Assembly: GCA_023052935.1 (NCBI GenBank)
Contig: JAJSOM010000051.1
Coordinates: forward strand, 144,232 to 208,231
Origin: Piezodorus guildinii
Lineage: Eukaryota > Arthropoda > Insecta > Hemiptera > Pentatomidae
Reading direction: 5' to 3'
DNA: 64,000 bases
Shown: one piece after another, positions 13,905 to 62,131 of the stretch
How positions within the stretch are numbered: the stretch's first letter is position 1
Layout of the letters: the number at the start of each line of letters is the position of its first letter
Notes under the pieces: generated by a model
The model's input: only the letters and a program-made list of their open reading frames with translations
What the model was told of the DNA's origin: nothing
Databases searched by the model: none
Program-made: the position numbers and the translations under genes

Positions 13905-16900
13905 TTACACTCTCAACTGCTCGTACATGGCCCTTAATTGCATAATTTCCTCTTTGACCCTGGTTAAGGAAGTTAATGGTATCGCCTGCCCTCTCTGCTC
14001 GTGCAACCATACTATGATTAATAATTTGTTTTCTTTGATTCTGATCTGTTTCATGATTATTTTCCTGTTTTCTTCCAATGAAGAAACGTACCAGTCGTCG
14101 AGGGGAGACAACAGCTCCTCTTCCGTCATCGGCCTGTTTCTTACTCTTTTTTCTTGCCAAAACTCTTTGACCTTTCTTCTCCTGTTTTCCTCTTGCAGAC
14201 TCTCGTGCCACTCTTCCATAGAAGAGAGTTGTATCTCCTCAGAGAAGAACCTCTTCCTTGCTTGTTCTTCTTCCTTTTCTTCAATCTCAATTAGATAATC
14301 AAGGAAATTAAATTCACTGTCACTGGACAATTCGGAATCTCTTTTTCGTTTACCTGAAACAATAAAATTACAAACTTGTATTATTAATATACAATTAAAC
14401 AGTTAGAGAAAGTAATAAAATATGGAATTATTTTTGATGCAAGGTTTTCAACGGTAATACATGTTTTAACTTCCTCTGGGTCCAGTATACTACAGTCAAC
14501 TACATCTTAGAGCAAAAAAAACCTTTACCTCTACAACACATGAAGGGTCTCTAGTTCAGTACCAATTGTATATAACTTTTGTATATATAATTTTTATATG
14601 TTTGTCTAGTTTTTGAGTTATTCAAAAAAATTTGTTTAAAGGTTTTAGATTTTTTTTTTTTTACCTCTTAGTGTACAAATTTTCCTAAACCCAGCCTTGT
14701 TGTACATTATCCCCCTAGGGAACCTTCATAAACAATTTCAGCTCCCTAGGCATGTCATTTTTGAGATTCTACCACATAAGTAAGTGAATCGAAACTTGCT
14801 TTATAGCGTATTTAAACAAGATAATCACAATGGATAAACAGGGGATCACTTGTAGCTGGGTGGCTAGTATAACAGCCTCCTTTGCCAAAGGTCATGGGTT
14901 CAAACATGCAAGTGGTCCTAGGATTTTTTAACGGGAGTAAAAAATCCTTAGTTATGCAGTCCTTCGGAGGGGACGTTAAAAGGTGGTCCTGATCCAGTGC
15001 GATGTCAGGTACTCATTAAAGATCTCTATCCTTATAAAACCTGGATAGGCAAAATTTAGGACTCTCACTGCAGCATCGTCCAATTAGCCATAGTGACATA
15101 AAGTGACGTTAAATAAATAAACAATGAATATAGCAAGATGATTTAATAACAATAAGAGACAGTCTTTTATTAACTATGTATCTGTATTTTCAATCACATA
15201 TCCCTACTATCCCGGAATAATAAACCGTAAAATATAAAATCAATCTGACCCGCAACCCAGCCCTCTGGTGTAAATATATTATAACTAAATACACTACTAT
15301 TAAATATAATATAATTAATAAATGATCTTTACCTCTTGAAGTGCAGCCAGAAGATGTAGATCGAGCATTTCCTGCAGTTCCTACTTGTGCGTACTTCTCT
15401 CTTTCTCTTGCAGGATGTGCTATTAACAAAAAAGAGAACAATATTAGCTTTTTAAAAGTAATTTTAAATTATACAAAGTATATATTCATGCAGATCATAC
15501 CGAGGGGCTAATATGGACACCGAGCATTAACTGGTAGTGTCCAAAATGAGAGCCAGGATATCAAATTTTAGGAAATCCATGGAAAAGAAGAGAGAGAGAA
15601 TAGCTACAGCCAGACTGAGAACGCCGGATGTTAGTGAAAAGTACAGTCCTAAGCTTGATGAAACAATCGTGGAAAATGGTGTACCAGATGGGCCTGTGGA
15701 AGAACAATGGAATGGAATGACTGATTATTGGGAAAACAAAAATTTACTGTCAATATAGATTTTGACAGTTTGTGCATATTTCCAAGTAAAATTACAAGAA
15801 CATCAGTATCAGAAGCTTTTATTGGAATTCTGGTGTTACTTTATGAGCATGAAAAACCATTCTCGTGTCTGCCTCTTCATGGTAGCATGCATAATCAACT
15901 TCTTCGCCTTTTTTAATACAGTTTTCCTGGGCTTGGTACAAGTAACACAGATGTTCAACAGTTAAAAATATTTTTTTGTTTCATATTATGACAGTAAATT
16001 TTTGTTTTCCCCATAATCAGCCAAGAAGTGTACCAAAGCATCTTTGAAACGATAATTTTTATGGCTTTGTCCAAAATCTTTGGTTCTGATTTGTTGATGT
16101 CCTGTAATTTTATATGGGATATCAAACTTACTTATATTGAATGTCCGATAACGTGCTTTATTATTACACGCTATACTCAACTCGGATCTCACTGTCACCC
16201 ATTTCCACTCGCGTTAAAATTTAATCTTTAAAATTCAGCAACCCACATTAGGACCAATTTTTTTGCAGGTAACCCTATATCAATTTGTTTGCAATAAAAC
16301 AACGCTTATATTGGTATAATTTTTTTCTATTATCATGATGTTGCAACATTTAGTTAAAAATCATTTTTTTTTAAATAATTAAAAATAGTCTGTCCAGGAA
16401 TTTTTAGGCAACCCATTCTTAACATATTTCCTAATATACTAAATTTGTTATAAAATAGGTTTCATTCAATTATCAGCTTGGTGCAGATCGTTTCAAGTTG
16501 GGATCTTCTACTATACAATAAATTATAAAACTGATTCAAAACACCTAAGTTCTCACTATGCAGATGCAATAGAAAAGTTAAAGTTGTAGGGTTTGCATTG
16601 TTGACCTATTTAAATAATAATTCAGTGTACCTTTACAGTAAATAGGATGACACTAATCCATAAGGGGCCAAAGAATATGTGAGGTGGGATGATTGTGGTT
16701 CCCTGTTCGTTATAATTTTAATTTTAAAAGACAATTTTGACAACATTTTTAATTAAAAAACTGATTTTTAACTTTTAGACAGCTCAGGTAAATAAAAAAA
16801 TAATTTTGTATGTAACATTGTTATTTGATTGTTGTTAATGTTTTTAAGTTATTATATTGAATAGTGTATCTTGATGTTAATTATTAATTATTGATGTATT

Positions 16901-19900
16901 TTAGTGAGTCCTGATGAAGGGGAATGCCCCCGAAATGTTGACTCGTTAAAGTTTTACTGTGATAAATTTTTTTTTTTTTTTGAAGAAATAGAAACCTACT
17001 ATTTTATTTATAGAAAAAGATTATAAGACTGATTGAAGTTTATGGTTTACTCCTAATGCCAGGTAAATTAAAAAAAAAAAAACATTTCATCTTGCTTTAG
17101 ATAACTTATTTTTTAAATTATAGATATTGGAATAAGATGTATTATATTTGATAATTTATATTTACCTCTTGTTTTGTTGTCAAGTAACGAAGCTAATGAT
17201 TGGATAATATTTTTAACTTCTGGGTACTGTTCTGCTTCGGTTGTGTTATTTCCTGCTAACAAAAAAAAAACAATATTAGATTTGCTAAAGTAATTTTAAA
17301 TTATAATAAGTATTAATACAAAAAAATCTTGAATTAATAAATACAAATATTAAATAAAAATATTTGAAGTTTAGAATTTACTTGTGATAATAGAGAATAA
17401 AAAATTCAATTTCATCTCACTTCAGAAAATGTATTATGTAAATTATAGATATTGGAATAAAATATATTATAATTAATAATTGATCCTTACCTTTTGTGGT
17501 GTCAGAAGATAGAGGCAAAGAATTGACTGTAGTTTGAGGGTACTGTTCTCCTCCAGTTTTGTTAATATTTCCTATTAACAAAAAATAAACAATATTAGCT
17601 TTGAAAAAGAAATTGCACCCTACAATAATCTTAATTTTTTGAATAATATAGTAGCAATTGGTTTGTTTGTTTATTTATTTAACGTCACTTTATGCTACTA
17701 TGGCAAATCGGACGATGCTACAGTGGGAGTCCTAAATTTTGCCTAGTACCAATTGGTAATAATATAGTAGCATTGGTAATAATAAGTAGCGATTGGTAAT
17801 AATATAGTAGCAATTGACACCGTTTTTAGGTCAATAGTTGTGCAAGGATGTGATTAGGCAGAGATCATGCTTAGAAACAAGGTTTTATCCCTCCATCTTT
17901 GGGGACCCACTTTATAGAAGTTGGGTGCGTCCCAGGAAGGTCTCCATACCCCTATTGTTGTCCCACAGCCAAAATAATAGATCTTTTTTATTCTTTTAAT
18001 ACATTTATTCTTTTAATAGGGACAAGAGGAGTGTTGTTGATGATACTGTAGGGGAGGATGTCATAGGTTCATGACAAAGGATAAAGGTTATTTTTTTTGG
18101 ATTATTGAAATTGGTTTAAATTCTCCAACTTTGATAGCATGCCTCAAGGTATCTGATGTGGGATTTAAGAGTTTGAGTGGCAATATTGGGAAGATTTTCG
18201 ACTGATAACACCCAAATGTCATCAACATCTCATAACATTAACCATCCCGAGGTTATAATTTTTTTAGTCACCTCAGAATGTTTCAATAAAGGAAAAAAGT
18301 AAAGACACAATAAAGAGAAGGCGTAAGGATTGCCCTGATTTTAAAAAAAATAAATTACAAATGTAACTTTTCATTTAGATGTGGTAAAATAAGTATTAAA
18401 AAAACCCTGCTCCACTACAATACCTGAAAGGTCTAGGACTAAGTACATATAGGCCGAGGTCGTCCTCAAATTCCAGGTTTTCTCCTCATTTTTAGGGTAC
18501 CAACTTTATAAAGAAGGGATGTGCCCTTGGAAGGGCTCCATACCACGAGGTTACTCCCAGCTGAGATACCAGAATAACTAATATTCAGCCATAGACAGGA
18601 TTCAAACCCGGGACGTAGAAAACAGTAGGACTAGTGCTGTATCCATTATATCACACAGCTCCCGTCCGAGGAGAGCAGTTAAATATATCTAAGAAATATT
18701 ATATTGATGTATTTTAGTGGCATACATCTATGTCAATTGTTTTATAAATATAAAAGAATTCTGTATCTCGTTGGAAGGGAAAAACTGTTTTATAATAATA
18801 ATTTTATGCTTATTTTGGTGTCGATATCCTAAAATTAAAAATAAATAACTTGAACCACAACAACCTAAGGAGAGTCTTGGATTCAGTAGATACAGAGTGT
18901 ATTTGGGTTTTTAACAGCGGTCTGCAATGAGGATCTATTTCATCTCTTCAGTTTTCCCCATTCTTTGGGTATCCACTTCACAGAGGCTGGGTGCGCCTCT
19001 GGAAGGTCCTCCTACTCCATGTTTCTTCCATAGACAAAATAACAGAATAAATAATCATGCTGCCTCAACCAGGTTTGAACCTGGGACCAGGAAATCAGCA
19101 GAGTAGTGCTGTATCTACTAGACTACACATCTCCTTTGATTATCAGTTTATAATATAATAACAGATGATAGGGGTAGGAAAAAAGATCTGTGTGCCTGTG
19201 TGTGTGGTAAGTCTAGCGAACATCTGGAAATTTTATATTTAAAACAACTATACGCTTCGAGATTTACAGCAGCTTGTTCATCAAAATCGGCTAACCAAAG
19301 AGCCAGTTTAAAACATGCATTTTGCACCTTATTATGATTTTCTCAAAAATGTTCAAAGGATTTTGATTAAACTCGTATATGATGTAAAATTTAATGGGCT
19401 TTCAATATGGCGTAGGTTTCATTTGATTGAATAGTTTAAAAGAGCATTAATAACGATAGTTTTTAATTTTCTTCCTCTAAAGTATCTTAACTTTTGTAGA
19501 TTTCAAAAATTAGGCACATCACCTAATTAGTATTGATAAATAACAGCTAAATATTCAATTTGAGCGAATTTGATAAACAACTAAAAGAGAAAAGTGCAAA
19601 CATATTTTTTATGCAATTTTTGTGTTTTTGATAATAAAACAGTAATAAAGACGTATAATATACGGTTGAAGAGAGAGATTTTAGAAAAAATATTATATGA
19701 TACAATAAAGTTGTAAAAGGTAATATAAGTGACGAATGGGGAATCAACTTATTACTGATTAACAATTTAATACAGTTATATACGGGTTCAACCCACAGGT
19801 GGCCCTAGGATTTTTTAATGGGAGTAAAAAATCCTTAGTTATGCCGTTCTTCGGAGGGGACGTTAAAAGGTGGTCCGAGCCTGTGCGATGTCATAGTAGC

Positions 19901-22900
19901 ATAGAGTGGCGATTAAATAAATAAACAAACAAACAATATAGTTATATTATTTAATCTAAATCATATGTTTCCAACGAAAATAAATATATTTTATTGGAAA
20001 TCAACTTCAAATTGAAGTATATTTAATAGTTTTTAAATTGATTTTAACAGTCTAGGTGTGTGGCACCCAAGCCACCTTTTTTTTTCAATGTATAAATTCT
20101 TGGGTGCACAGAGGATTTTTTAAAATTCTTTATTTGCGTTATAAGTAGTTTTGAAACATATCACTCAAATTTCGAGGAGTTATTTTTTATTTTTTTTGAT
20201 CGACTACAAAGGTTCCATTATTTAAAACAATAACCAAAAGTATCTAAACTTACTTTTCACTATTTGTTTTTAATTTATTTGAAATTAAATTTAAATATTC
20301 TTGATTCCAAAACATTTTAATTTTTTCTCCACTTTAAAAAGAAACGAGAATGGGTAAATTTCCATCTTGTATAAGTTGTGACTTACATATATAAGAATTT
20401 TTTTTCTTTGTGTTAATCGCGGCGTCATGATCACGATAAACATAATTTTCTCCATCTTTAATGATAACTGAATTATGGGGAATATCTAGGTAAATTTTAT
20501 TTTTTTTTTGTCTTTTCATAATAATTAATCACAGTTACTGAATATTTATATTAGATTTAATTTAAATTTAAATCAAATGTTAATAAATTTCCCAAAATGG
20601 ATTTAATACCTGTAAGATGTTTTTATTACTTAAGGGATGTTTTATGACAGTAGGTAAAGTTATCTATCACAAAGGCTCTATCCCTCACAACACTTCCGAT
20701 AGCTAAACCCTTTTGTGGTTTATTACTTTGGGGAAATATTTTTGACTGTTGGATTTGATTTATGACTATGACTCATTTATGTTTATTTTTTACTAAAAAT
20801 TTAAATTTTTTTGGTTTCTTTTTACCATATCAATTTCTCTAATCACTCAATTAATAAAGGAGATGTTTTCAATATGCTTTAGGATAAATTAAACATGTAC
20901 TTTTTAACTTTAGGAAAGAAATGCGAATTTCCAAGGACGTATTAAATAAAAATGAAGAATGTTCTTTAGATAAAAACGGACGACGGAATTTGATTAAAAT
21001 AAAATATGTAAAAATATCAATTCCACGAAGAATGCCCTTATAGTCTTATAGCCTCAAGTTAAAAAACTAAGATGGCGAAGTTACATCAATTTTATAAACA
21101 CTCATTGTTTGATCTAGAACAAAACTTTAATAAATTAAATATTAATATAACATAACGTCAATATAAAGCAGAAGTCGATGAATCTAATAAGTAAATCTTT
21201 TAAGGCGACTATACATGGAATAATAAGTTTCTACATGTAGTACATGATATGAAGCATTGAAAAAATAAATTTAATGTCCTCTATGTATAAAAAAGAGTTT
21301 CCCAGACCAGATTTATCTAAATCCGTCATCTGAATTCAGTTGTAGAAAACACAAATCATACAAAAATGCATTTCGAAATTGCAAAAGTTTTAAGTACATG
21401 TTCAATTTCATTCGAACTTATATATAACTTTTTCTTCCTTAACCTAAGAATATAAAGTTAAATAATATAGTAATAAAATAATTCAGATTTTAATGCAAAA
21501 TAATCAATTAAATCGGTCTAATAACAAACCACTGATAGAGTTTCGCAAAATAACTTTGCCCTGGTGTCTTGTATGCTTTTGATTAAAAGCAGTAATTGCA
21601 TCAAAGTAAAAAGCATATTTGTTTAATGATTTCTAAGAGAAAAATCAATATATCATAATTAATGGGTATAGTTTACTATTAATGTAATCACATCAAGAAT
21701 TTTTGGGATTCAGACCAAAAAACTATAATTACGTTTTTGCAAACGTTTCAGCCCCAACTTGTGAGCCGTTATCAGGGCGTGGCTTTGGAGACCAGAAACC
21801 AAATTCTATCTTCTTTATAATATCAATTTGGACATAGTTTTGATTTCTACGTACCCTGATTTTGGCTCACAAGCTTGGAAGATACCTTAGAGTATAATAT
21901 TGAAAAATAAAGACAATAATCATTATATGAATCTACCATTACAAAAAATTATTTTAAAGATATGAAGTGAATATATAGCAACCAATCATTTTTTATAATT
22001 GCCACTAGACTAAATTTAAAACTACTCTTTTATAAATATGTTGAAAACAAAATATTATTAAATGTGATTTCGAAATAGAACTATACTAAATATTAAAATT
22101 TTCTTAAGAATATTGATCGAATACGGCATTATCTTTAAGACTGTAAGGTTTAGTGTCATATTTTGTAAATAACCATTTAGAGTATATTCAATACTTATGC
22201 ATAATTCTTTGCAATGGTAATATCATATAAATATACCTTATGTTTTTTGATATTCCGTTTTTCACCATTAGGAAATGAATGTGAGAACAATGAATTTTAG
22301 AAAATTCGGCAAAATATAGCTGGTAATTGAGACACTAATTACCAAAAGTCACTTTAGGGAATTTTTGATTTAACTGATAATTTGAAATATTTCTATTCTG
22401 ATCGTTAAGCTTTATCGAAATCCATCTTTAAATACCATCAAATAAGGAAAAAAAATCCTTAAAAACAGGTTAAAAAATAAGAGGCACTAAATACAAAGTT
22501 AATTTCATTCCAAACCATACGAAAAAAAAAATCATTTATAACTTAAGAATAAAGTAATTAACATAATTTTTTTTTTTCAGATTTCAAAGCTAAAAAAAAA
22601 TCAAATAAATTGTTTCAATAATAAGGTGATAAGAGATTTCGGACGTTTTCTATAAAATTTCTAGAAACGGATAATTTTGGAAAAGATGTACTCAATTATT
22701 GAACAAACCAGAAATCAATCACATTTTTAGGGACATTTAATTTTAATAAGAATGAAATATTGTCCAAAAATTTCTAAAACGGGTAGCACCTATTGCCTCA
22801 ATTATTGACCTCCTCAAGACCCTTTGACAACTTAATCATACACACACTTAAATATTATATACAAGAAGAAGACACTAACCAGTGATTGGAGAGAAATACT

Positions 22901-22949
22901 GCAGATAATCCTCCCCTAGGAAGCTGACAGGGGTAGCGAAGAGAGCCAT
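13905..22949 (-). CDS. Microexon family gene A (5 exons, 257 aa), unknown function
   Basis: I do not recognise the product. Exons on the minus strand: 22880-22949, 17491-17571, 17166-17252, 15333-15419 and 13905-14353. Lengths of 70, 81, 87, 87 and 449 nt sum to 774, a multiple of three, and every junction is phase 1 with GT/AG ends. Donors read GTTAGT, GTAAGG, GTAAAT and GTAAAG; acceptors read TTGTTAATAG, TTGTTAGCAG, TTGTTAATAG and TTGTTTCAG. Exon 1 starts MALFATPVSF. Three microexons carry the cores GGEQYP, EAEQYP and REKYAQ, two followed by Ser/Thr-rich stretches. The last exon opens with KRKRDSE (NLS-like), continues acidic and Glu-rich, then carries a basic helical tail containing IKENKLL and ending YEQLRV. 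That exon has an internal duplication: EE-x-x-LSS-x-EEW and EE-x-LLSPLDDW. No clear signal peptide or membrane span. Introns hold SINEs and LINE pieces. Further microexons in the 5.3-kb intron 1 are possible. The exon model is inferred; the open frames and splice signals are seen. Confidence 0.68.
14511..14570 (-). mobile_element. SINE family A tail fragment in gene A intron
   Basis: AAAAAAAACCTTTACCTCTACAAC and GAAGGGTCTCTAGTTCAGTACC match the 3' end of SINE-A copies at 10,622 and 26,210. Confidence 0.5.
14842..15122 (+). mobile_element. SINE family B, full copy
   Basis: tRNA-like head GGGATCACTTGTAGCTGGGTGGCTAG with A box and GGGTTCAAACATG as B box. Body contains GGTCCTAGGATTTTTTAACG, CCTTCGGAGGGGACGTTAAAAGGTGGTCC and GATCTCTATCC. 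The 3' end is GTGACGTTAAATAAATAAACAA. Lies in gene A between the last microexon and the terminal exon. Confidence 0.78.
15530..15721 (+). mobile_element. LINE endonuclease-RT linker fragment
   Basis: Frame MSKMRARISNFRKSMEKKRE followed by RIATARLRTPDVSEKYSPKL resembles the region between endonuclease and RT in RTE-like LINEs. Truncated on both sides. Confidence 0.5.
15722..16019. mobile_element. MITE-like element with about 30-bp TIRs
   Basis: GATTATTGGGAAAACAAAAATTTACTGTCA at the left faces TGACAGTAAATTTTTGTTTTCCCCATAATC at the right. The 298-bp body has no coding capacity. No target duplication recognised. Confidence 0.55.
16020..17100. other. Gene A intron: AT-rich, one hammerhead-like motif
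   Basis: No gene. CCTGATGAAGGGG-AATG-CCCCCGAAATG lies at 16,910-16,942, followed by AGTTTTACTGTGATAAA. Confidence 0.4.
17660..17745 (-). mobile_element. SINE family B tail fragment
   Basis: TTTATTTATTTAACGTCACTTTATGC and GACGATGCTACAGTGGGAGTCC, reverse of the SINE-B 3' end. Confidence 0.65.
17815..17985 (-). mobile_element. SINE family A body fragment
   Basis: GTGCAAGGATGTGATTAGGC, GGGACCCACTTTATAGAAG, GGTCTCCATACCCC and CACAGCCAAAATAATAG match SINE-A. The tRNA head is missing. Confidence 0.6.
18000..18360 (-). mobile_element. Jockey LINE fragment
   Basis: Matches the intact jockey ORF at 34,919-35,130: GGGACAAG ... GGATGTCATAGGTT and CTCAAGGTATCTGATGTGGG. Truncated and mutated. Confidence 0.65.
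18399..18661 (-). mobile_element. SINE family A copy
   Basis: Near full length: tail CCTGCTCCACTACAATACC, body GGTACCAACTTTATAAAGAAGG and GGGCTCCATACC, head TTCAAACCCGGGACGTAG with CCATTATATCACACAG. Confidence 0.65.
18842..19136 (-). mobile_element. SINE family A copy
   Basis: Tail AACTTGAACCACAACAACC, body GGTATCCACTTCACAGAGGC, head TTTGAACCTGGGACCAGG with CTACTAGACTACACATC. Confidence 0.65.
19170..20060. mobile_element. TIR element family T1, truncated copy
   Basis: Homologous to 32,240-33,010 over about 800 bp: GTGTGTGGTAAGTCTAGCG, AAATCGG(C/T)TAAC, CACATCA(C/T)CT and AACAGTCTAGGT at the end. Left end missing. Contains a SINE-B fragment at 19,787-19,935. Confidence 0.6.
19787..19935 (+). 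mobile_element. SINE family B partial copy
   Basis: GGGTTCAACCCACAGGTGG, TTCGGAGGGGACGTTAAAAGG and AAATAAATAAACAAAC, with the middle deleted. Confidence 0.65.
20065..22875. other. Gene A intron 1: AT-rich, no gene
   Basis: No coding signal beyond short chance ORFs. The block at 20,630-20,760 (GACAGTAGGTAAAGTTA ... GGTTTATTACTTTGG) recurs at 42,220-42,345 and 44,745-44,820. A GAAACG-type motif (TGATAACGGCTCAC on the minus strand) is at 21,745-21,780. Undetected microexons could lie here. Confidence 0.4.
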
Positions 22950-22989
22950 AGTGTTGCATCTGAGACAGTAGATCCAGAACTGAAGAGTC

Positions 22990-23120
22990 CTCAGGTAGTC
23001 TCCTTCCTCCTCTTGGTTCAGACGCTGCTGCCATCTATTCTTCTTCTATAGCAAGTGCCTTAGCTGCCTCATCCAGGTATACTCTAGTTAGTCCACATTC
23101 TAGCTACCTCTTTGGTTCTA
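22990..23120 (-). promoter_or_regulatory. Gene A promoter with TATA-like box
   Basis: TATAGAAG (23043-23050) stands 101 nt upstream of the MAL start codon, the same spacing as TATAAAAG in gene B. The flanking block through the CTAGCTACCTCTTTGGTT motif is shared with gene B. The 5' leader between TATA and ATG is conserved among A, B and C, including the string TTCAGTTCTGGATCTACTGT. Confidence 0.45.
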
Positions 23121-31392: not shown

Positions 31393-34281
31393 TTACATGA
31401 CCAACTGCTCGTACACGACCCTCAAGAGCTCTAGTTCCTCTTTTAGTCTGGTTATGGTAGTCGATGTTATCGTCGGCTCTTTTCTCTTCTCCGACCATCT
31501 CAGGATCACTAACTTGTTTTCCTTGTCTTTTATATCTTTTAGGATACTCCGTATGGTTTCCTCATGTATATACTTGTACCAATCATCCACAGAAGAGGGT
31601 TGTTCCTCCTCGGACAAGAACCTCTTCCCTGCTCTTTCCTCTTCTTCATCTGTGCTGCTATCAGAGTGATTTAAGTTATCATCACTGGAGGAATCGGAAT
31701 CCTTTTTCTCTTTATCTGAAACAATAAAACTTTTATTATAATATGTTTAAAACATTCTCATTTATCCTAACACTAGGATTATAAATATGAGATAGAAACC
31801 CTTGGTAAAAATATAGCAAAGGAAATTTCTTAAAGAAAAAAATATGAGTAAGATCCTAAACTCAATAAGATGGAATAAAAATATTAAATTGTAAACAAAA
31901 AAACTCGACTTCTGGTAGGAATTCTCTTAGCATTGTCAGTCTCAAGCTCTGGTAAATGAGGAGGGTTGAATTTAAGTATGGGACAACACTCCCATTGTTG
32001 TTTTGGAAATCTTAACAATATAGCCCCGAATTATGTACTAATAAATAGTAGTATGCTAATCTACCAAGTCAAAGGTTGAGAATTTAAATCCCAGTTCTGG
32101 AAGGACTTTTTACTTTCACTTACCTATACAAGAAATATATAGTAAGGGAAAGTATTGCGATTGTGAACATTTTTTAATTCCATTTTTCAATGGAAAGACA
32201 CGTTTTAGGGTCTCCCGAGTCCAAATGACTAAGTTCCAAAAAAAGGTCTGTGTGTATGTCCATGTGGGTGGGTGTGGTAAGTCTAGCGCAAAAACCATAA
32301 GTCCTACAAAACTGAAATTTCATATTTTAGACAACTATACAAGATGTTAAAGCAATGTTTTCATTAAAATCGGTTAACTAGAAGGGCCACTTTATACCAT
32401 GCATTTTACACCTTTTTATCATTTTCTCAAAAACGGCTCTAACGATTTTGATTAAACTCACTATATTGATGTATAATTTCATGGGCTTTAATATGGCTTA
32501 GGTTTCATTCTGATTGAAATAGTCTGATAGGACTTAAATGCTGATATATTAAATTTTCTTCCTTTAAAGTAGCTTTAATTTTGTAGATTTCAAAAAATTA
32601 GGCACATCATCTTGTTAGCATTGATAATTAACAGCTAAATATTCAAGTTGAGCGAATTTGATGAACAACTAAAGGAGAAAGGTGCAAACATATTTTTTAA
32701 TGCAATTTTTGTATTTTTGATAATAATAACAGTAATATATACATATAATATACCGTGGGAAGGAGATAGATTTTAGAAAACATATCTGATACACAAAGTT
32801 GTAAAAGGTAATATAAAATGAGGAATGAAGAATAAACTTGTTACTGATTAACAATTTAGTATAGTTATATTATTTAATCTAAATCATATGTTTCCAAGGA
32901 AAATGAATACACATTTTATTAAAATCAACTTCAAATATTTTTCAAATTGAAGTATATTTTTTATATTATAGTTGTAATAGTTTTTAAATTGATTTAAACA
33001 GTTTAGGTAAGTGAAAGTTATGTGTTGCCCGAACCAGATTTTTTAAGCATGTTATTCAATGGGGATGCACCCACAACCTCCCCCAGGTATGTGAGACCCA
33101 TCAGCCAACTGGTGGCGACTCGCAAAAATAGGCATGGGGAATGATGGTGGGGAACTATAACACATCATCATGGAAACCACTATGAAAGGGCCTCCATGAC
33201 CTGTCACGCCAACCAATATATAAATGGAAATGGTGCAATATATCTCTAAGGGACAATTCTTCTGCGTACAAATTGGTTATGTGGAATATGAGAACACTCT
33301 TCAGATTAAGGGTCTTTAATGAAGTTAGGCTAGGAGTATCAAATATGATTCTGATATAGCTGTTCTTCGGAAGTAAGTTGGTTAGCAATGGGAAAGCTTA
33401 AGAAAAAAGACTACACCTTAAACAAGTAAAGTAAGAAAGTAAAGATCGACTTAAATTTGGTCGTTCATTCCTGATAAAAACTAAATACCAGGTTACATGA
33501 CTTACAGGAATGTACAAAATAAGACTGCAGGGAGCTGGTTTAATATTAGCATTATCAATTCTATGTCTTCAGAAGACAAAGATGAAATCATCAAAGAAGA
33601 AATTTCCTTAAAGCTAGAGAAGTTTCAAGCTTCAACGCTGACCAGTAGTTTCGAGTTCAAACAAAGAATAAGGACAGCCAAGGTATCTCACAAGAATAAG
33701 GACAGCCAAGGTATCTCACAAGTGTACCCAAGAAAAAAATTAAACCTTTAACAGGTGAGGTGGGGTCTACAGTAGGGGTGGGCATAATCGGATGATCGCC
33801 ATAATCGAATGATCGGACTTCAATGATTTAAATAATCAAATGATTCCACAATATGCAATCTGAAAAATAATTGGCACAATTCCCCTGTCTACGATTGCTG
33901 AGCTGGGGCTATAATGTATGTGATGAGAAAAAAAAAGTCATTTATCATTATAAAATTCAGTTCGAATGATCATCCAAACCAATTAATCCCATAATAGATT
34001 AATTCAAAAGATTGAAATAATCGAATGATCTGATAATCGACATTTGATTATGCCCACCCCTAGTCTACAGGACCTCAGGGCCTCTTTAAAGTTTTGTGAA
34101 TCCCATTGTCCGGATCTGTACGGATTGTGAAAACCTGATATTTTCTGTCTCGACATGATCGTAATATAGCATCCTTTTTAGGTCAGTTTTTATGGGTGTT
34201 ATTGAGGTCTTGTAGGGGTCCACCTCACCATTACTGTCAATCACTACTATACATACAATAAATTATTTCTTTATATTTGGT

Positions 34282-34318
<37 letters not shown>

Positions 34319-37300
34319 CATTTATTGAAATTTACAACTGTATGTACATACATCAAGTAAATAGGCTAAAATGATAATACACATGAAAAAAAACATGAAG
34401 AGAAACTGCCCATTGGCAGCACTCTAGTAGTAATCTACACAAGAAGGTCTCGAGGCCATCTTCTTTTCAGACGCCTCGGCGGATTTTCAGGAATTGAAGT
34501 GGAAGCAAGGATTGAAACTTGTGGATTAGAGTGGGAGTGGAGTTTTTCATGGAAGGAGTGATACCTGGTACAGGCCAAATCAGCAACATATGGAACATTA
34601 AGGTCTTTGTGGATGATTTTGTTGGTGACAAAGTAAGGAGCGTTAAGGATTTTGCGAAGGATTTTGGATTGTAAGGATTGGATACGGGAAGAGTTTGATG
34701 GTTTAGTAGAGCCCCAAAGCTCAACTCCGTAAGTCCAGATAGGCCTTATGATTGTCATGTAAATTAGTCTTTTGTAGTAAAGAGAAAGGTTAGAGCGTCT
34801 GTCAAGTAAATGTTGAAGTAACCGAAATCGGCGAGCAGTCTCTTGTCTTTTCAGTCTTGTATGCGGATTCCATGTAAGACGTTTGTCAAGCAGGAGGCCT
34901 AAATAACGGATCTGTTCAACAGGGACAAGCGGAATATCATTAAAGGACACTGTAGGGCAGGATGTCATAGGTTTACGACGAAGGGTAAAGGTAATCTGGT
35001 GGGATTTATTGGAGTTGATTTTAATTCTCCAATTCTGACACCATACCTCAAGGTCTCTGATGTGGGATTGGAGGTTTTGAGAGGCAATACTAGGATCGTT
35101 ATTAACTGATAGCACGCAAGTGTCATCGGCATAGGTAGAAAGGAATGTGTTAGGATGGGTTGGGATATCAGCTGTATAGACTGTGTAGAGAATGGGTCCT
35201 AGGATACTGCCTTGAGGAACACCAGCAGACTGAGTAAAAGTGGATGAATAGGAACTATTGTGGTTGATTTTAAAGGTTCTATCAGAGAGGTAGGACTGAA
35301 GGATGAGGAAGTATGTTGGATGGAGGAATTTACGGAGTTTGTACAGCAGTCCCGGGTGCCAGACTCGGTCAAAGGCCTGTCCCACGTCGAGAAAGACTCC
35401 TGTGCAGTACAATCCGCGCTCCAATGCAGAAGAGACTACATCCACCACGCGATGACACTGCTGGACTTTGGTCATTTAAAATATTTTAATGTGTCAACTA
35501 TTACATTACTATAGATTTCAATAGTCTGTCTAGTGTTGCAGTATAATTCAATTGTTTGGTCTCCTTATTATAAAACTCATTAAATTACTTGAGAGGTTAC
35601 AAAATAATTTTTTAAGGCTGGTAGGATGTAAGATTGGAATTCCCTATTGTGATGTATCATCAGATGATTTAATGCTTGGATCCAATCTGACATTAGAAAC
35701 CAGGTGACATAAATTTGACCTAATATTATTATATAAAATTAACTGCGCTGATTCATTAGAACAGATTAATTTCTACATACTAAAAATGACTACCCGATCA
35801 AGTCTACTTTTTTTTACTGCTGTAAATACCACTAAATATCTTTATCATAGTTCTGTTAAAAATGTTTACCAACAGAGAAATAAAATATGTCATCTTATTT
35901 TTTTATTTAATGTTAATTTACCAAATTAAAAAAAATAGTTGTCAATTATTATTGCTAACAATTCTCAACTATAGTCAAGAATTAATTTTATCTATGTTAA
36001 ATGTTAAAAATTTATTATTCTATATTTATTTTACTATTCTATATGTTATATTATTCTATATATTTTTTTTATTAGTGCTCATTGAATTCTTATTTTATTC
36101 CTCTTTTTTATTATTTATTTTCTTGTAAAATGTTTTTAGCTGCCCATCGATAAATAAACCACAGAAGAATGATGGATTTTGTTCATAGTAAGGCTTTGTT
36201 CTGTTTCTAGACTAACAGCTGGGCAAAGGAGATGACTGGTGAAGATGAGGCTCAACCGTTAGGTTTTCCTCTCAAATTTTGGCTACCCACTCTATAGAGG
36301 CTGGATGAACTCTGGAATCGTATAGCAACCCAAGAGTTAATCGATGGAGGATGCAATAGAATAAATAATTATTCTATCACACAGGACTCAAATCAAGGGC
36401 ACAATAAATAATCTTTTAGAATCCATGTAGCAATGAAATTATTCTGGAATTATAAATATTGGAAAAAAAAAATATTATCATAGATAATTGATTCTTACCT
36501 ATTTTAGTGTTGTCTGATGATGATTTGATATCACCCTCCACTCGTGCGTACTGCTCTTCTTCTGAAGTGCTGTTTTCTATAAACAAAATACAAAATAATA
36601 TCAGCATTGTGAAAGAAATTTTACAATCTCATTTATAATTCTATTGAACCTGGATATTCATTAAATGATTTAATATGCGGGATTTGAAGGTAGAAAGAGA
36701 GTTGGAGGGACGGATGGAAGGAGGGATAGAATTCCATAGGATTGAAGATCGAATGAGAAAGGATCTGTCGAAATGTGCAGTTTAGTGGGCCATACTGTAT
36801 AAATGCGAAGGCCTGGAGGGTGTATGGGGATGGACAGAAGATTTGAATGGTAAGAGGTCAAAAATGTATGATGGACGGCGGGATAGGATATCTTGGTAAA
36901 CGAATGATAGAAAGAAATACTTGCGACGATTGGAAAGGTAAAGCCACTTCAACTAGCTATAAAATTGGGATACGGAGGTGTATCTAGGGACACCGAAGAT
37001 GAATCGGACAAAGCAATTAATTATGCGTTTTATTTTTACCTTGAGATCCACTGAGATCATATACTGTACAGCAATAGTCGAAATGGGGAAATATTAAAGA
37101 GGTACGAGGAGTTTTCGGGTTTCATCCGGGAATAGGTGACGGAGGGAATACAGTCACTTTACGGTTAAAAAGGTACGATGAGAGAGTTTGGAAATATGAT
37201 TTTACTTCCAGGTTCCTGACAGTCGGGTGGAACTTTATAAGATTACAATTCAGGTACATTTTTGGGATATGTGGAACAGTTTTCATGAAGGGATGAAATC

Positions 37301-39138: not shown

Positions 39139-40306
39139 TTGCTCACTTCACATGATCTTAAACAAACAAACACAAATGATCGAGATAAGATGGGTGAATA
39201 TAAAACATGTAAGTATTCGATAACTAACTAAACCAGAAAAATTACAACAGGTCAATTTTTCTTCATCTAGAATATTTATGTATAACTTACCGTTAGAAAG
39301 CTTAGAATTTTATAAAAAATATAATGAAACATTCAAATTCCTAAAAGATAATACTAATTGACAAATAGGGTATAATGTTTAGTAATTGCTGTTGATAAAT
39401 ATTTCTATTTTTATATCAATTAATCTAAAAGAGAATGTTTCCATTGAAACAATATAAATCTTATTTTAATTTCAGGCATAACTAAATGCTATCTGCTACA
39501 CCCACCAGAATTTTTTATAAGCTTAAAATAGTTTTAAATTCATTATAATAGCTTGAATCACTTAGAAGATAAATAAACACGATTTTACTGAAGGCTAAAT
39601 TGCAAAATAAAAATAGGTTTTGTAGGGACGTTACAACTTAGAACCAAGGATTAATCATTTCAATGAAACTTCATTAGTCTTTCAGAGGAAGAAACATTTT
39701 AACAAACGTGAACCGAATTATATAATAATCCACTATCATGAACAATAAAAAAAATTTAGTAGCACTAAGTTTCAATAAGATTTAGTAAAAAAAAAAAAAA
39801 AAGAATAATCATTTTACATGGAAAATTTATAAAAAAATTAGTTTGCAACAAAACTTAAGAAAAAAATATTCTTTTATAATCAGAGTATAATTAGTAATCT
39901 AGTCCATTCAAATCTAATCTCATTATTACATGAAAATTTTATAATTTACTTCACACGATGTTAAACTAAAAAAAAACATGTATTCTCTGGAAAGAAAAAA
40001 TAAAATTAATATAGCCAGAGTTCTCCAAAAAAAGTTTATGAAATGTTAAGTGTATATATAACGGAACCTCTAAGACCCTTCTACCTAATATAAGTTCTTA
40101 ACTAGTTAAAGATAAGTAATAATACTGAAATAATCAAAGAAAATATTAAAAATTAAATTCCGAAAATGTATAAAGTGTCGATCGCCTTATACATATACAC
40201 AATAACTTATTATATATAAAATATAATTATTATGTAGACACTAACCTGTGATGGAGGAATCTTCAGCACCATGAAAAAAGCTGAATAGGGTAGCGACTAG
40301 AGCCAT
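31393..40306 (-). CDS. Microexon family gene B (3 exons, 153 aa), unknown function
   Basis: Paralogue of gene A with exons 40246-40306, 36499-36576 and 31393-31715. Lengths of 61, 78 and 323 nt sum to 462, an exact reading frame, and both junctions are phase 1. Exon 1 reads MALVATLFSFFHGAED. The microexon starts with an N-x-S/T site (NST), has the core SEEEQYARV and a Ser-rich tail. The terminal exon opens with KEKKDSDSSSDD, passes through an acidic run, then KRFLSEEEQPSSVDDWYKYI, then KDKENKLVILRW, and ends in a predicted helix finishing YEQLVM. A TATA box lies 103 nt upstream of the ATG. The introns (3.7 and 4.8 kb) contain LINE, SINE and TIR elements. More microexons may be hidden in them. 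Acidic-then-basic composition without a clear signal peptide leaves cellular location open. Confidence 0.65.
32112..33019. mobile_element. TIR element family T1, complete copy (about 908 bp)
   Basis: Ends ACTTTCACTTACCTA and TAGGTAAGTGAAAGT, with a possible TTA flank on both sides. No transposase. Lies in gene B intron 2. Other copies: 19,170-20,060; 43,290-44,480 (inverted, with a nested SINE); 48,240-48,575 and 23,570-23,760 (fragments). Confidence 0.65.
33060..33764 (+). mobile_element. LINE endonuclease-domain fragment
   Basis: Broken frames give LVMWNMRTLFRLRVFNEVRL-type sequence at 33,265-33,330 (endonuclease start) and GSWFNISIINSMSSEDKDEI plus SLKLEKF (33,527-33,630), matching the FNIxIINxxxPTEDKDEE block of RTE-like elements. 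A 28-bp unit (AATAAGGACAGCCAAGG ...) is duplicated in tandem at 33,667-33,722. A hAT MITE interrupts it. Confidence 0.6.
33773..34062. mobile_element. hAT-type MITE (290 bp) with perfect 8-bp TSD
   Basis: TIRs TAGGGGTGGGCATAATC and GATTATGCCCACCCCTA. Both sides are flanked by GTCTACAG (33765-33772 and 34063-34070). The 8-bp duplication and GGGGTGGGC ends are typical of hAT elements. AT-rich body with repeated AATCGAATGATC; no ORF. Confidence 0.85.
34284..35475 (-). mobile_element. Jockey LINE, 5' truncated, RT frame intact
   Basis: One open frame of 346 codons (34435-35475) covers most of RT: CTGVFLDVGQAFDRVWHPGL, FTQSAGVPQGSILGPILYTV, FLSTYADDTCVLSV (catalytic YADD), IRYLGLLLDKRLTWNPH, then IYMTIIRPIWTYGVELWGS and the jockey tail to RRLKRRWPRDLLV. 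A 31-nt T-run at 34,284-34,314 is its poly(A) tail on the minus strand. No stop or shift, so a fairly recent insertion that landed truncated, in gene B intron 2. Confidence 0.88.
35560..36170 (+). mobile_element. LINE 3' fragment
   Basis: Plus-strand frame RLQNNFLRLVGCKIGIPY, VSSDDLMLGSNLTLETR and, after a shift, KFDLILLYKINCADSLEQIN, the RT tail pattern of jockey/CR1 LINEs. Ends in AT-rich sequence. Confidence 0.6.
36190..36410 (-). mobile_element. SINE family A copy
   Basis: GGCAAAGGAGATGACTGGTG, TTGGCTACCCACTCTATAGAGGC and ATAGAATAAATAATTATTC. Sits beside the gene B microexon. Confidence 0.55.
36650..37230 (-). mobile_element. LINE C-terminal fragment
   Basis: Minus-strand frames give YCCTVYDLSGSQG, LRCP-x-IHLRIPIL, FQSSQVFLSII and the tail SFDLQSYGILSLLPSVPP, an RT C-terminus of the RS-x-x-F-x-x-A-x-x-WN-x-LP type. 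Partial and broken. Confidence 0.5.
37240..38500. other. Gene B intron 1 sequence, no gene
   Basis: AT-rich with no supported ORF. A short T1-like piece lies at 38,330-38,460 (TGTAAGTCCAGCTAAA, ATTCCATATTTTAAAAGCG). Confidence 0.4.
38505..39245. repeat. Inverted-repeat element, arms of about 100 bp
   Basis: CTTAAGATCATGTGAAGTAAG at 38,580 pairs with CTCACTTCACATGATCTTAA at 39,145. Flanking TGTCTCGATCATT and AATGATCGAGATAAG also pair. The interior holds an (AT)n run at 39,080-39,117 and no transposase. Confidence 0.55.
39246..40245. other. Gene B intron 1 near exon 1
   Basis: No gene. The segment 39,690-40,245 is duplicated at 47,670-48,095 beside exon copy C (GAACCGAATTATAT, GAATAATCA, TTACTTCACAC). 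Confidence 0.55.
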
Positions 40307-40369
40307 AGTGTTGCACCTGAGACAGTAGATCCAGAACTGAAGAGTCCTCAGGGTGTCTCCTCCCCCCTC

Positions 40370-48095: not shown

Positions 48096-48156
48096 CTGTG
48101 ATATAGAAATCTTCACCAACATGAAAAAAACCTACAGGGGTAGCGACAAGAGCCAT
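48096..48156 (-). pseudogene. Microexon family copy C, orphan first exon
   Basis: Sixty-one nucleotides encode MALVATPVGFFHVGED and six more residues, with the same phase-1 donor (GTTAGTGG) as exon 1 of A and B. The duplicated block extends left into about 430 bp of intron 1, matching 39,690-40,245 of gene B. It stops near 47,665, where LINE sequence begins. I find no microexon or terminal exon belonging to it before gene B. Upstream, the conserved 5'-UTR block is present to about 48,210, but the TATA region is replaced by a TIR-element fragment. Probably a truncated duplicate. Confidence 0.6.
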
Positions 48157-50540: not shown

Positions 50541-50552
50541 AAGTAAAAAAAA

Positions 50553-50583
<31 letters not shown>

Positions 50584-54000: not shown

Positions 54001-54346
54001 GGAAATTTGCATCATAATAATATTCCCCAATTTTAATTGGTACAAAAATTTGTTTATTTATGCAAGCACTCTTTTTACCTGTTACGGAGATAATATTAGT
54101 CTTACTAATGGGTAAGGTTTTGAATTTAACACAAGCTTTAAATTTATCAAAAAATGATTTTTTTAAAATTGAAACTTCAGCTCCACAATCAATGAGTAAA
54201 CTAACACTTAAATTTCCAAAATTAGCTGTTATTTGTGGAGATGGAAACCGAATTTTTCTAAAGGGTTGGTTTTCTTCAAGGAATATATTTTCTTCGAATA
54301 GGTTGTTTAACAAATAATTCTCACAAGTAAAAAGAGCATTTTCATT
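51041..54346 (-). CDS. pol: Ty3/gypsy Pol polyprotein (PR-RT-RNaseH-IN)
   Basis: Open from directly after the gag TGA, in the same frame, to TAA-type stop at 51041, about 1,100 codons. Domains in order: aspartic protease with LLIDCGAEVSIL and the IIGVDFL flap partner; reverse transcriptase with TLDLKSSFWQVGL and VYVDDILIHG; RNase H with FYVDTDSSDFASGG, STEKELLGV and VRTDNKAITF; integrase with an HHCC finger (HEKFSHSG ... CKVCQFNK), catalytic D (SIDYLGPF), D (SDNATCF) and E (SERTNRD); a GPY/F-type C-terminus (FEGPYEVVNKLG). No chromodomain seen. The protease motif is DCG rather than DTG/DSG. No ATG precedes the protease, so Pol would need stop readthrough. Confidence 0.92.
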   Translation of the reverse strand, partial: NENALFTCENYLLNNLFEENIFLEENQPFRKIRFPSPQITANFGNLSVSLLIDCGAEVSILKKSFFDKFKACVKFKTLPISKTNIISVTGKKSACINKQIFVPIKIGEYYYDANFLIAHDIAQECIIGVDFLISYSAVLNFESNFISLKNADGHISVINFINFVDKPLKYSILESKDNNPMKGYIKHPQYFSSNNNVNINSVTRDFNVNDDEKIKNNICKICEESKHLLTYEQLTDFKNILWDNKVIFQDKPGLIKNYQHILEVTDSRPYKQFQYKLNPKLIELAKIEIEKMIKDDIIEVSHSPYINPIILVEKKNTDPNSDDVIDSKVRVCLDGRFLNKRLVPLYDSPPCINNILFQCANAKYLATLDLKSSFWQVGLEESSRPYTGFQFLNETFHYKRVPFGLSVSLGAMIKALKKVIPNYLFNNIKVYVDDILIHGETIDEFLNTLKDLFGVFQENGLTLNLDKCNFFRKSVKFLGYVLTDNGIEKDPSKVEDIKSFKVPSNVKELQSFLGLINFYNKFCPGYADITKSLYKLTSIKSNFKWKDEHQQAFENIKDTMIHDITLQYPDFRKMFYVDTDSSDFASGGVLYQLDEQGYRKIISFCSRTFKGAELNYHSTEKELLGVIHCIQKFYNIIAGYQITVRTDNKAITFLHTCKNPPGRLIRWINYLGPLNITYEHIPGVQNKIADFLSRHPVDEPEQKGTDFQVNALNETTFFQDLIKNQKNDPELINKMENEPNNFRILDGFICKHLGDRFLIYLNKKWMNELIRLVHEKFSHSGVNKCLSIIRERFNSHKVRKLIANVLKSCKVCQFNKIGPYSVAPYQSIQVGGKLDLVSIDYLGPFVSSNGNKYIFVVIDNFTKFVKLYPTRKANFFGARKSMIEYIEEVGTPTKCLSDNATCFTTERWKYFLFSLNITRILSSIRHPIGNISERTNRDVLQYLRLLLDGKQNKWSNKLFQIEQTMNTTYHTTTGVTPIQGMFGIKPLRFWNSYIGDEPGVLNLNADQIQELIKNKIQKFGEKNKLKYNQNKKFTYFKVGDKVLLKALRVPIPGVVNAKLLPLFEGPYEVVNKLGKHSFLIAGPNGNKRGLFHTSLLKPYHE

Positions 54347-55759: not shown

Positions 55760-55840
55760 ATTATTGTCTAAATAATAAAAACTTTTAAGTAAAGATTTGT
55801 GCTCTGATTGCTGTGTCTTAATTTTTAACAAATTAAGCCA

Positions 55841-55858
55841 CACCTAGTTGGGTGCCAA
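55841..55858 (-). promoter_or_regulatory. Primer-binding site of the Ty3/gypsy element
   Basis: Four nucleotides past the 5' LTR the minus strand reads TGGCACCCAACTAGG. This resembles the Lys-type retroelement PBS TGGCGCCCAAC with one mismatch in that core. The tRNA assignment is inferred. Confidence 0.6.
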
Positions 55859-55862
55859 ATTA

Positions 55863-56546
55863 TATAATATGCTTATTTTTAAAAAACAAATATTTCTTAA
55901 GGAAACAATTAATTTACACAATATTTAATAATCTAAACTTTATTTTCTCAGGTCTGGGTTCATAACAATCAGGCACAATTTTTATAATTAACTTATAATT
56001 ATAACTTACAAAATAAATAAGTAATGAACAGGCTAACAATGTTGATATTAAATTCTATTCTTCTGACAGCAGCTCTAACTCCTGGAGGTCCTCACACTTT
56101 AACAGTCAAAACAGATATCCTTTTCTCTCTACCTGGTTCCTCTGGGGTTTCTCCGGGGTTTTCCTTTTCCCTCTTCACCTCTAGCCAACAAAATTAAGTT
56201 TCTTCTTTAACAAATGTTTTATTTTTGATTCTGGATCTTCTTTTTAAATAATTGATTCTTCTATTATAGTGGATATTAAAAACTGGCTTGTGGAATATGT
56301 GAATTTCATTAATTAAGACTAGAAGATAGATCTGGCAGTGGTTTTGGTTAGTATCCAAAATGGAGTCTACATATTTGTAATAAGCTTCCAAAATAGTGAC
56401 CATAAACATACAATTAAAGCTGTCAATACCTAAACATGATTGTTAGCCTGCATAACACAATATTAATTATAAGATTGTTAGCCTGTCAAAATAAAATAAA
56501 AATAATTCTAACAATAAAAAATTCCTTCTATAGTGGGTATATTACA
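55863..56546 (-). repeat. 5' LTR of Ty3/gypsy element (684 bp)
   Basis: Matches the left copy along its full length with one difference (C here, T in the other, in CTGGAGGTCC). A GATTGTTAGCCTG string occurs twice inside. Short ORFs within it are not genes. Confidence 0.95.
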
Positions 56547-57007: not shown

Positions 57008-57323
57008 TTACATGCCCACTTGCTCGTACTTGTACCAGAAGTCTGCCAGTTCCTCTATGATCCTGGATAAGGTAGTTGATGTTATCGTCTGTTCTCTCCT
57101 CTTGTGCGGCCATCTCAGGATCATCAATTTGTTTTCTTTGTCTCCTATCTCAGCCATCATGCTGTGCTTGGTTCATCGTTCAGATACTTAAAGAAATCTT
57201 CCAGAGAAGAGGGCGGTAGCTCCTCAAACAAAATCATCTTCCACTGATCTTCTCCATTAATATTGTTTACTAAGTAATCAAAATCACCATCACTAGAAGA
57301 TTCCGACTCTATTCCCAGTTCAT
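57008..57323 (-). pseudogene. Microexon family copy E, frameshifted terminal exon
   Basis: Homologous to the terminal exons of B and D, with an intact acceptor (ATGTTCCAG) and phase-1 entry. The frame opens DELGIESESSSDGDFDY and continues to LEDFFKYLNDE, then reads PSTA and a TGA at 57157-57159. One nucleotide is missing relative to D just after the DE codons. In the other frame the family tail resumes at ENKLMILRWPHKRREQTI and ends YKYEQVGM before TAA at 57008-57010. This looks like a pseudogene, but a shortened protein ending at the early stop cannot be excluded. No microexon or first exon was found to its right. Its 3' flank is split by the Ty3/gypsy insertion. Confidence 0.65.
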
Positions 57324-57837: not shown

Positions 57838-59356
57838 CACTCCCCCCCCTTATAAGTATTGAAACACCCATGATTCTCAGTATTTTCTTGGTTTTGACCT
57901 TAATCCAGACTTTGTTTATGTTTATAGTAATTTTATTTATTATATGAAAGATATTAGTTATTACACATACCATTTATATTCACTTTTTACCAACAAATGA
58001 TGGAATTTTGTTTCATTTATTTTAAATTGCTTTTCAGTCAATGTTTATCTTTCATTTGCCTTAAGTCTGTTCTATCTTCTCTCTTAAGTCTAGATAAAAT
58101 AATTAATTTAATCACAATGAATCATTCAAGTCACGATGCTTCGGTCAGAACTCTCTTTGGAAAAGGCAAATCATTGCATTGCATTGCGAATCGTCTTGGG
58201 ATTCAATATTCTACCGCTTTAAGGACCATAAAAAGGTACAGAAAGACTGGTAGTCAGTCGAGATGACCATCATCAGGGCATCCCAGGGTTACTAACCCCA
58301 TAGATGACCGCTTCATTAAAATACAAGCACTTTGGAAGCATAATTCTACTGCATCTTCCACTAAAAACCTGATCGATGGTGTCGAGGGTTATTTATCTCA
58401 GGGTCAACGGTCATTAGGAGACTGAGAGAGTCAAACCTCACGTAAAGAGGACCTGTGAAAGGTCCTCTTCTCATTGCAGAACACCATGTAAAAAGATTAA
58501 GATATGCAAGGTAACACCAATCTTGGACGGTAGAGGAATGGAAAGTAGTTTTATTCACTAATGAAACGAGAGTGGCCCTTAAACAGGCCAGGTGGCCATG
58601 AAAGAGTTTGGAGAAGGCCTAGAGAATGGTATAGTCAGTGCTGCATGTTAGAAACTGAGCCATTTGAAGGGGGTTCTATCATGGTTTGGGATGGCATATC
58701 TTCTTTAGAGGCACGCACCGAGTTAGTGCCAATCCAAGGAGGGGCTTTGAATGCTTTGAGGTATATAGAAATGATTCGTCAGGATCATGTACTGCCTTTT
58801 ATGCCATTCATAGGCTCTGAATCATTGCTCATGCATGATAATGCTCGTCCTCACAAGGCAAGATGGGTTTCCGAATACCTGAGCACCACAGATATTCACA
58901 CCATTGATTGGTCAGCTAGAAGTCCTGACCTTAACCCATTCGAGGACGTTTGGGATTATCTCGAAAGAAATGTTCAGTCACAAGATTCACCTCCTACTAC
59001 CCTTGAAATGCTAAAGACAGCTGTATTGAAGGAGTGGGACAATATACCCCAAGATTTTCTTCAAAATCTTTTTACAAGTATGCCAAGACGGATGGAAGCA
59101 GTCATTCAAGCCAGAGGGAGCAAAGCATCTTATTTAATGTAAATTTAAAGTTTAAAATGTAAAATAGGAAAATTTTAAAAAGTAAGTTTTCTAAATTTTT
59201 TGTTTATTGGAAGAAATATTGTAATTTATTTTAATAAAACCTGTTTAATTTCCAGTTTAAAAATGTTAATTATTAAATTCAGAACCTTTCTTTAATATAA
59301 AATAAAGAATGTTTTTGAAAAATTTTTAAGTGTTGCAATACTTTTGACAGGGAGTT
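57838..59356 (+). mobile_element. Tc1-like DNA transposon, degraded (DD34E)
   Basis: TIRs: ACTCCC...AAGTATTGAAACAC (57,839-57,867) and GTGTTGCAATACTTTTGACAGGGAG (59,330-59,354). The transposase N-terminus starts near 58117 (MNHSSHDASVRTLFGKGKSL) with helix-turn-helix RTIKRYRKTGSQS, then a TGA. The catalytic half is open over 58561-59142: VWDGISS, FIGSESLLMHDNARPHKARW, TIDWSARSPDLNPFEDVWDY, QDFLQNLFTSMPRR. The first catalytic motif reads LFTNETR, with Asn for the usual Asp. Several stops: inactive. Confidence 0.85.
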
Positions 59357-61255: not shown

Positions 61256-61400
61256 TGGCAGTGAAATTGTTTTGTAAATTACAGATATTGGAATAAAGTA
61301 TATTCTGATTAATAATTAAAAAGGTTGTTTTAGAAAGGAATATATTAATACGTATCCTAATTATATAAAAATTAAAATATCTTCCAAAAAAAATAAATAA

Positions 61401-61543: not shown

Positions 61544-62131
61544 TTACATTCCCAACTGCTGGTACTTGTACCACAAGTCTGCCAGTTCCTCTTTGACCCT
61601 GCTCAGGGTAGTTGATGTTATCGTCTGCTCCCTTCTCTTGTGGGACCATCTCAGGATCACTAATTTGTTTTGTTTCTCCCTTATCTCTTTCATCATGCTT
61701 TGCTTATCTTCATCAGTCATAGACTTGTAGAAATTGTCCAAAAAACAAGGTTCAAGCTCATCGGCCAAAAACCTCTTCCATTCTCTTTCATCTTCATCAC
61801 TGTCGTAACCAGAACAATCGAAATCATCAAAACTAGCAGGTTCAGGATCTCTTTTCCGTTTACCTGAAACAATAAAATTACAAACTTGTATGATAATATT
61901 TCAAACAGAAATAGAAATATGATTACAAATATGAGAACTTAGGATTTCTATCTTATTTATAGTTGCTGTATTTTTTAATTAACAAAAAAAAAATATAATA
62001 AAAGCTTAAATTTGTAATGTAATTATGATTGATAAGATCTTTACCTCTTGTGTTGTAATCGGAAAATGAAGTCCCATTGTCGATTTCCATGTCCGTTTGC
62101 AGGAACTGCTCTCCTTCTGCTGCAGTACTTT
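61544..62131 (-). CDS. Microexon family gene D, 3' part (last two exons)
   Basis: Partial member whose 5' exons lie beyond the right edge. The microexon 62045-62131 is 87 nt, phase 1 at both ends, acceptor TTGTTAATAG, donor GTAAAGATC, core EGEQFL. After a 181-bp intron comes terminal exon 61544-61863 (acceptor TTGTTTCAG). It opens KRKRDPEPASFDDFD, has an acidic DSDEDE run, KRFLADELEPCFLDNFYKSM, the basic-aromatic core QNKLVILRWSHKRREQTI, and an amphipathic helix ending YKYQQLGM then TAA. Frame is open across both exons. It is the cleanest copy of the terminal domain and aligns along its length with those of B and E. Function unknown. Confidence 0.66.

Follow-up and report, generated by a model that had tools for sequence, protein, structure and literature searches.

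The window analyzed here, the final 64 kb of a 208,231-bp contig (C10:144232-208231) in an assembly of 1,203 Mb (~1.2 Gb) and 434 contigs, holds members of a gene family in a stink bug as two complete gene models, A (257 codons) and B (153 codons), together with several part-copies. Between positions 13905 and 62131, three first exons of the form MAL[VF]AT, with ATGs at 22949, 40306, and 48156 on the minus strand, are accompanied by five cassette exons of 78-87 nt, three open terminal exons, and one frameshifted terminal copy. The features are given below in window coordinates.

22950..23010, minus strand: conserved block 5′ of gene A exon 1; its TCAGTT motif is presumed to be initiator-like in sequence and function (exon-1 alignment)
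22880..22949, minus strand: gene A first coding exon, 70 nt (exon-1 model, gene model)
17491..17571, minus strand: gene A cassette exon 1, 81 nt, phase 1-1 (cassette scan)
17166..17252, minus strand: gene A cassette exon 2, 87 nt, phase 1-1 (cassette scan)
15333..15419, minus strand: gene A cassette exon 3, 87 nt, phase 1-1 (cassette scan)
13905..14353, minus strand: gene A terminal exon with stop, 449 nt (gene model)
40307..40366, minus strand: conserved block 5′ of gene B exon 1 (exon-1 alignment)
40246..40306, minus strand: gene B first coding exon, 61 nt (gene model)
36499..36576, minus strand: gene B cassette exon, 78 nt, phase 1-1 (cassette scan)
31393..31715, minus strand: gene B terminal exon with stop, 323 nt (gene model)
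48096..48156, minus strand: orphan first exon of FFHVGE type, ~7.9 kb upstream of gene B exon 1
57011..57306, minus strand: broken terminal-exon copy with a frameshift
62045..62131, minus strand: gene F cassette exon, 87 nt (cassette scan)
61544..61863, minus strand: gene F terminal exon with stop
61267..61317, minus strand: fragment resembling intron sequence 3′ of a cassette exon
7835..7993, plus strand: terminal-exon part-copy with in-frame stop, on the opposite strand and outside the span of the other features

Gene A is assembled from exons of 70 + 81 + 87 + 87 + 449 nt and gene B from exons of 61 + 78 + 323 nt, with GT-AG introns that are all phase 1; both models sum to exact reading frames, as an earlier note on this DNA had claimed. 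For gene F, no first exon was found upstream of the cassette, and the contig ends at window base 64000. Three further complete models lie elsewhere in the genome, namely a counterpart of gene A on contig C6 and the models F1 (154 codons) and F2 (155 codons). In all five, which were selected for having intact exons, every intron is phase 1 and the frame is exact.

The phase of single cassettes in the window is partly due to selection, as the scan that found them demanded phase 1-1, but the joining of exon 1, cassettes, and terminal exon into one frame is independent of that demand. A chance control applied a strict rule (open, phase 1-1, a pyrimidine tract, and the motif E[KQ][YF]). On the minus strand this rule returned six pairings, the five cassette exons and one alternative boundary; it returned none on the plus strand (one if the motif was dropped) and none in 20 first-order Markov sequences. 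The mapped exons and the empty control bear out the description of tandem copies that share a MAL-x-AT first exon, cassettes with an E-(K/Q)-(Y/F) core, and a terminal exon.

Sampling beyond the window consisted of 200 kb of C6 taken whole (C6:151450001-151650000) and 20 short stretches elsewhere, these last chosen mostly for open frames in the terminal-exon search, so that the share of intact copies is not estimable from them. A cassette model trained on 12 cassettes and run on the 200 kb of C6 and the window gave 44 matches, all on the minus strand. Twenty-seven of these (five in the window, and the 12 training cassettes included) are intact, that is, open, phase 1-1, and 72-87 nt long; the other 17 comprise seven asymmetric exons, five with frame errors, one with a stop, and four without a usable acceptor/donor pair. 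The motif CTAAY, taken here to be branch-point-like, occurs 15-50 nt upstream of 18 of the 27 intact cassettes, compared with 186 of 2415 T-rich AG sites. The seven asymmetric exons, all on C6 and outside the window, are 79-80 nt long, a length at which phase 1 on both sides is impossible; five give a cassette-like peptide only with a phase-2 entry and a phase-1 exit, and two carry indels. The claim that all junctions are phase 1 therefore stands for the window models and fails for the family. Likewise, the exons are small and symmetric as described, but at 72-87 nt the intact ones are not microexons in the strict sense.

A single run of cassettes at C6:151.493-151.514 Mb accounts for 21 of the 44 matches, 13 of them intact. 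According to the exon-1 model, no first exon immediately precedes this run, and the nearest one upstream (C6:151.532 Mb) contains an in-frame stop, so that the run may be no working gene. The most direct support for a frame-neutral cassette number comes from gene A, which has three cassettes and 257 codons in the window and four cassettes and 285 codons in its C6 counterpart, both in-frame; that cassettes can be gained or lost without damage to the frame had been predicted. At the level of sequence, the observation of tandemly arranged family members whose cassette exons are frame-neutral is confirmed and its interpretation supported.

The block preceding the first exon is strongly alike across nine aligned exon-1 copies and is probably the promoter of each gene. 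In both places read, a first exon of FFHVGE type is followed ~7-8 kb downstream by one of FFHGAE type, once in the window and once on C6 (at 104242 and 97249 of the 200-kb string); a third such arrangement on C6 is recognizable by position, its start no longer fitting the MAL pattern. The exon at 48096-48156 and its counterparts are possibly alternative first exons, or else products of one duplicated arrangement.

Searched against the same genome, terminal exon F gives 75 matches at E ≤ 0.001. Small contigs hold 51 of these and C6 another 21, at 151.46-151.82 Mb, two of which overlap; C1, C2, and C3 have a single match apiece. The search with exon 1 plus its 5′ block gives 28 matches, of which 11 lie on C6 and the remaining 17 on small contigs. 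As window pieces longer than 1 kb (13-57.6 kb) are collinear with C6:151.589-151.634 Mb at 86-98% identity, the small contigs may be alternative haplotypes and these counts inflated. Contig C10 itself also contains matching copy pairs ~138-140 kb apart (e.g., 67386 with 205778, and 18187 with 158145), which reflect either a large duplication or an effect of assembly.

The terminal exon is predicted to consist of a disordered acidic stretch followed by a helical hairpin. Acidic residues number 13-17 in the first 45 of the terminal part in A, B, and F. An AlphaFold model of the B terminal exon from four sequences places helices at residues 44-78 and 86-107, with 56 residues at pLDDT ≥ 90, hairpin blocks at 86-98, and the first 40 residues at low confidence; a model from three sequences with F first is weaker (mean 70.6). 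The motif KRKR, which we take to be a putative nuclear localization signal, had been assigned to the terminal exon in general. It is present in 12 of 20 aligned terminal exons but absent from gene B, and absent as well from the one relative found in another species.

Attempts to place this domain in a known family were without result; the earlier note likewise recognized no known family. No Pfam family reaches its threshold in any of the three terminal exons of the window, and across the set of 20 the best E value is 0.012, with no transposon family listed; the weak matches (DUF3574, MGS, and others) differ between members and were set aside. Sequence and profile searches of the PDB return nothing better than E 0.65 (Mediator subunit 30), and Rfam has no match at its gathering score. 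Foldseek finds no match at E ≤ 0.001, its best PDB values being 1.2 for the first model and 1.0 for the second, and its best viral value 0.59 for the second; these matches are generic helical hairpins, uninformative as to a known fold.

A homologue search using a single terminal exon gave no match. A profile of 20 terminal exons identified an unnamed 154-residue protein of Nezara viridula (P0121; E 2.8e-20), the only match at E ≤ 1 among 1965 candidates. Its terminal domain is homologous (identity 41%, coverage 70% of the first query row), and its length is close to that of B, F1, and F2. A profile of 14 cassettes, each of 29 residues, fits best at residues 23-51, precisely on the ...TR/D-K-R-K junction (shuffle P = 0.0008, n = 20000). 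Its N-terminus has diverged, and the comparison covered its protein sequence. The family is so far known from this genome and this one N. viridula protein; no such family in true bugs is described in the titles and abstract openings surveyed, which is no proof of its absence in print.

Selection was gauged from minimum numbers of changes relative to the majority sequence, counted as nonsynonymous (N) and synonymous (S) for each group of exons; the counts took in copy L003, whose protein is that of L002, and left out L005, which is one codon shorter. In the terminal exons of F (five copies), 7 N and 14 S changes give a ratio of 0.12 (p = 2e-6), and in those of A (five copies), 27 N and 14 S give 0.46 (p = 0.03). 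By these counts, the F and A terminal exons are under purifying selection at the codon level. No constraint is detectable in the terminal exons of B (two copies; N 10, S 3, ratio 0.86, p = 0.74), in the 75-nt cassettes (seven copies; N 26, S 5, ratio 1.73, p = 0.31), or in the F cassettes (four copies; N 12, S 3, ratio 1.08, p = 1). The 75-nt cassettes differ from the F terminal exons (Fisher p = 3e-4) and from the F and A terminal exons together (p = 0.006). Pairwise comparison of 24 terminal exons gives a median ratio of 0.55, with values below 1 in 234 of 254 pairs, these being the pairs of 276 that passed a dS filter of 0.1 and not being independent of one another; a pairwise count for cassettes gives ratios of 1.80 (75 nt) and 1.14 (87 nt). 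The cassette ratios fall short of demonstrating positive selection, and the lack of constraint may reflect decaying arrays.

Taken as a whole, the family is most likely taxon-restricted and intracellular, and perhaps nuclear. The fuller account preferred here, to which somewhat less than an even chance is given, is of a stink-bug family that combines a constant hairpin with variable cassettes in an intracellular, probably nuclear protein. The family would be protein-coding and would spread by tandem duplication of whole segments. Its gene structure is evident from the sequence: each gene comprises a conserved 5′ block and first exon, at least one frame-neutral cassette, and a terminal exon predicted to encode an acidic disordered stretch, often headed by KRKR, before the hairpin. 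The hairpin might serve as a fixed docking or oligomerizing part and the cassettes as a variable linker or contact surface, their number tuning the binding to a fast-changing partner. The protein would stay inside the cell, probably in the nucleus, a location that draws on the KRKR motif, which is missing from gene B and from the N. viridula protein.

A nuclear, multicopy family near chromosome ends might instead be a germline family engaged in genetic conflict, through meiotic drive or its suppression, an explanation that seems unlikely. The terminal matches on the four large contigs do lie towards an end, at 43 kb on C1, 362 kb on C2, 136 kb on C3, and 2.3-2.7 Mb on C6, and many copies are broken. 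However, the matches on C2 and C3 are short, at 41 residues, with weaker E values (2.8e-10 and 1.1e-6), and C1, C2, and C3 contain not one of the 28 matches to exon 1. Duplication near chromosome ends is, moreover, common to many kinds of gene family, which also counts against this explanation.

Lower still in probability is a family of secreted salivary proteins, active in the food plant or prey, that has reached a plan like that of the aphid bicycle genes independently. In the available text on Hormaphis cornu, bicycle genes are a multigene family whose small internal exons begin, with few exceptions, at codon position 2 (PMC9168663). The phase-1 introns of all five stink-bug models agree with this, whereas the seven asymmetric exons elsewhere do not, and the absence of detectable constraint in the cassettes would also suit such a role. 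Membership of the bicycle family itself is rejected as far as it can be tested. A gene-structure classifier using the published coefficients gives p = 0.00016 to 0.0083 in the five models, against a cut-off of 0.72; as the paper, in the part available, describes a search of genes with at least four exons (PMC9168663), the three-exon models B, F1, and F2 do not qualify for it, which leaves the two A models as the only ones with a firm result. The CYC motif occurs in none of the 27 intact cassettes, although bicycle homologs without a clear CYC motif are also counted as bicycle in the same available text, which gives a mean of ~17 exons for bicycle genes compared with 3-6 in the stink-bug models (PMC9168663).

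The stink-bug proteins show no clear signal peptide, as judged from hydropathy. In four N-termini of this genome, the best 8-residue mean is 1.75-2.43 (the highest value, that of gene B, favoring secretion), which is compatible with a weak signal peptide, but the N. viridula N-terminus, at 0.96, is not hydrophobic. Also against secretion, none of the five N-termini scored, four from this genome and one from N. viridula, has K or R in its first eight residues, and the cassettes contain only five Cys in 736 residues. The micro-exon genes of schistosomes, in which, from the accessible part of one account, most of the coding region lies in very small symmetric exons and all products carry a signal peptide (PMC4350168), share small symmetric exons with the family; however, cassettes make up only 17-40% of the coding sequence in the five stink-bug models. 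The resemblance to both systems is, as first proposed, one of architecture only.

The family might also represent, for the most part, dead or selfish amplification of a segment in which few genes work, and 17 of the 44 cassette matches are indeed broken, partial, or asymmetric. Many terminal copies carry stops, the C6 counterpart of gene B has two in-frame TGA codons, and the cassettes are close to neutrality. The purifying selection on F and A terminal exons, the five exact models, and the N. viridula relative make this explanation quite improbable.

That the terminal exon is a transposon protein, or a gene carried by one, is very improbable and was rejected, for although the window is rich in transposon pieces, the matches are clustered (21 of 75 on C6 within 0.36 Mb), the genes have introns, and no transposon family appears among the Pfam matches of the three window terminal exons or of the set of 20.

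The transposon content of the window includes an LTR element at 49842-56546, judged by eye to be gypsy-like, with two 684-bp LTRs that differ by one mismatch and, between them, two long open frames likewise read by eye as Gag and Pol; the element appears young, and the C6 counterpart of this interval has no insert. Debris at 11593-11964, 58549-59142, 34435-35475, and 10852-11367 includes Mos1-type HTH, DDE_3, and RT pieces, the RT label of 34435-35475 having been assigned by eye.

A broader extension of the preferred reading, of a constant hairpin with variable cassettes inside the cell, is that true bugs independently evolved an expandable system of symmetric exons, resembling bicycle genes or schistosome micro-exon genes in plan but serving intracellular nuclear proteins, in which a constant helical hairpin is joined to a fast-changing region. 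This is a speculative claim, less probable than the account on which it builds. The length of that region would vary by cassette copy number, possibly with a contribution from alternative first exons and splicing. The family offers a case outside aphids and flatworms in which small exons of the same phase vary in number beside a constrained flanking exon, and this contrast makes the cause of such architectures testable where secretion seems to be no driver. Most of the family also appears to lack annotation, in an insect group that includes numerous crop pests.

Further observations concern the assembly as a whole. The 29 COX1 matches in the genome all lie on C1-C7, and 27 contain in-frame TGA codons; they are nuclear copies of mitochondrial DNA, with no mitochondrial contig among them. 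Among the 120 matches listed for one nuclear COI fragment, few of them named and full-length COI barred by a length rule, the best named one is an insect, Meru phyllisae, at 85%; two other insects and an entry labelled as a hare are also named, which places the source no more narrowly than insect. The start of C1 carries a repeat, (TTAGGGATGG)n, which together with the N. viridula relative makes a pentatomid the likely source. Its 20-mer occurs 510 times forward and 65 times reverse (0 and 0 for the reversed control), and the accessible text of a published account records the motif from Cimicidae, Coreidae, and Pentatomidae, the pentatomid being Aelia (PMC11354137).
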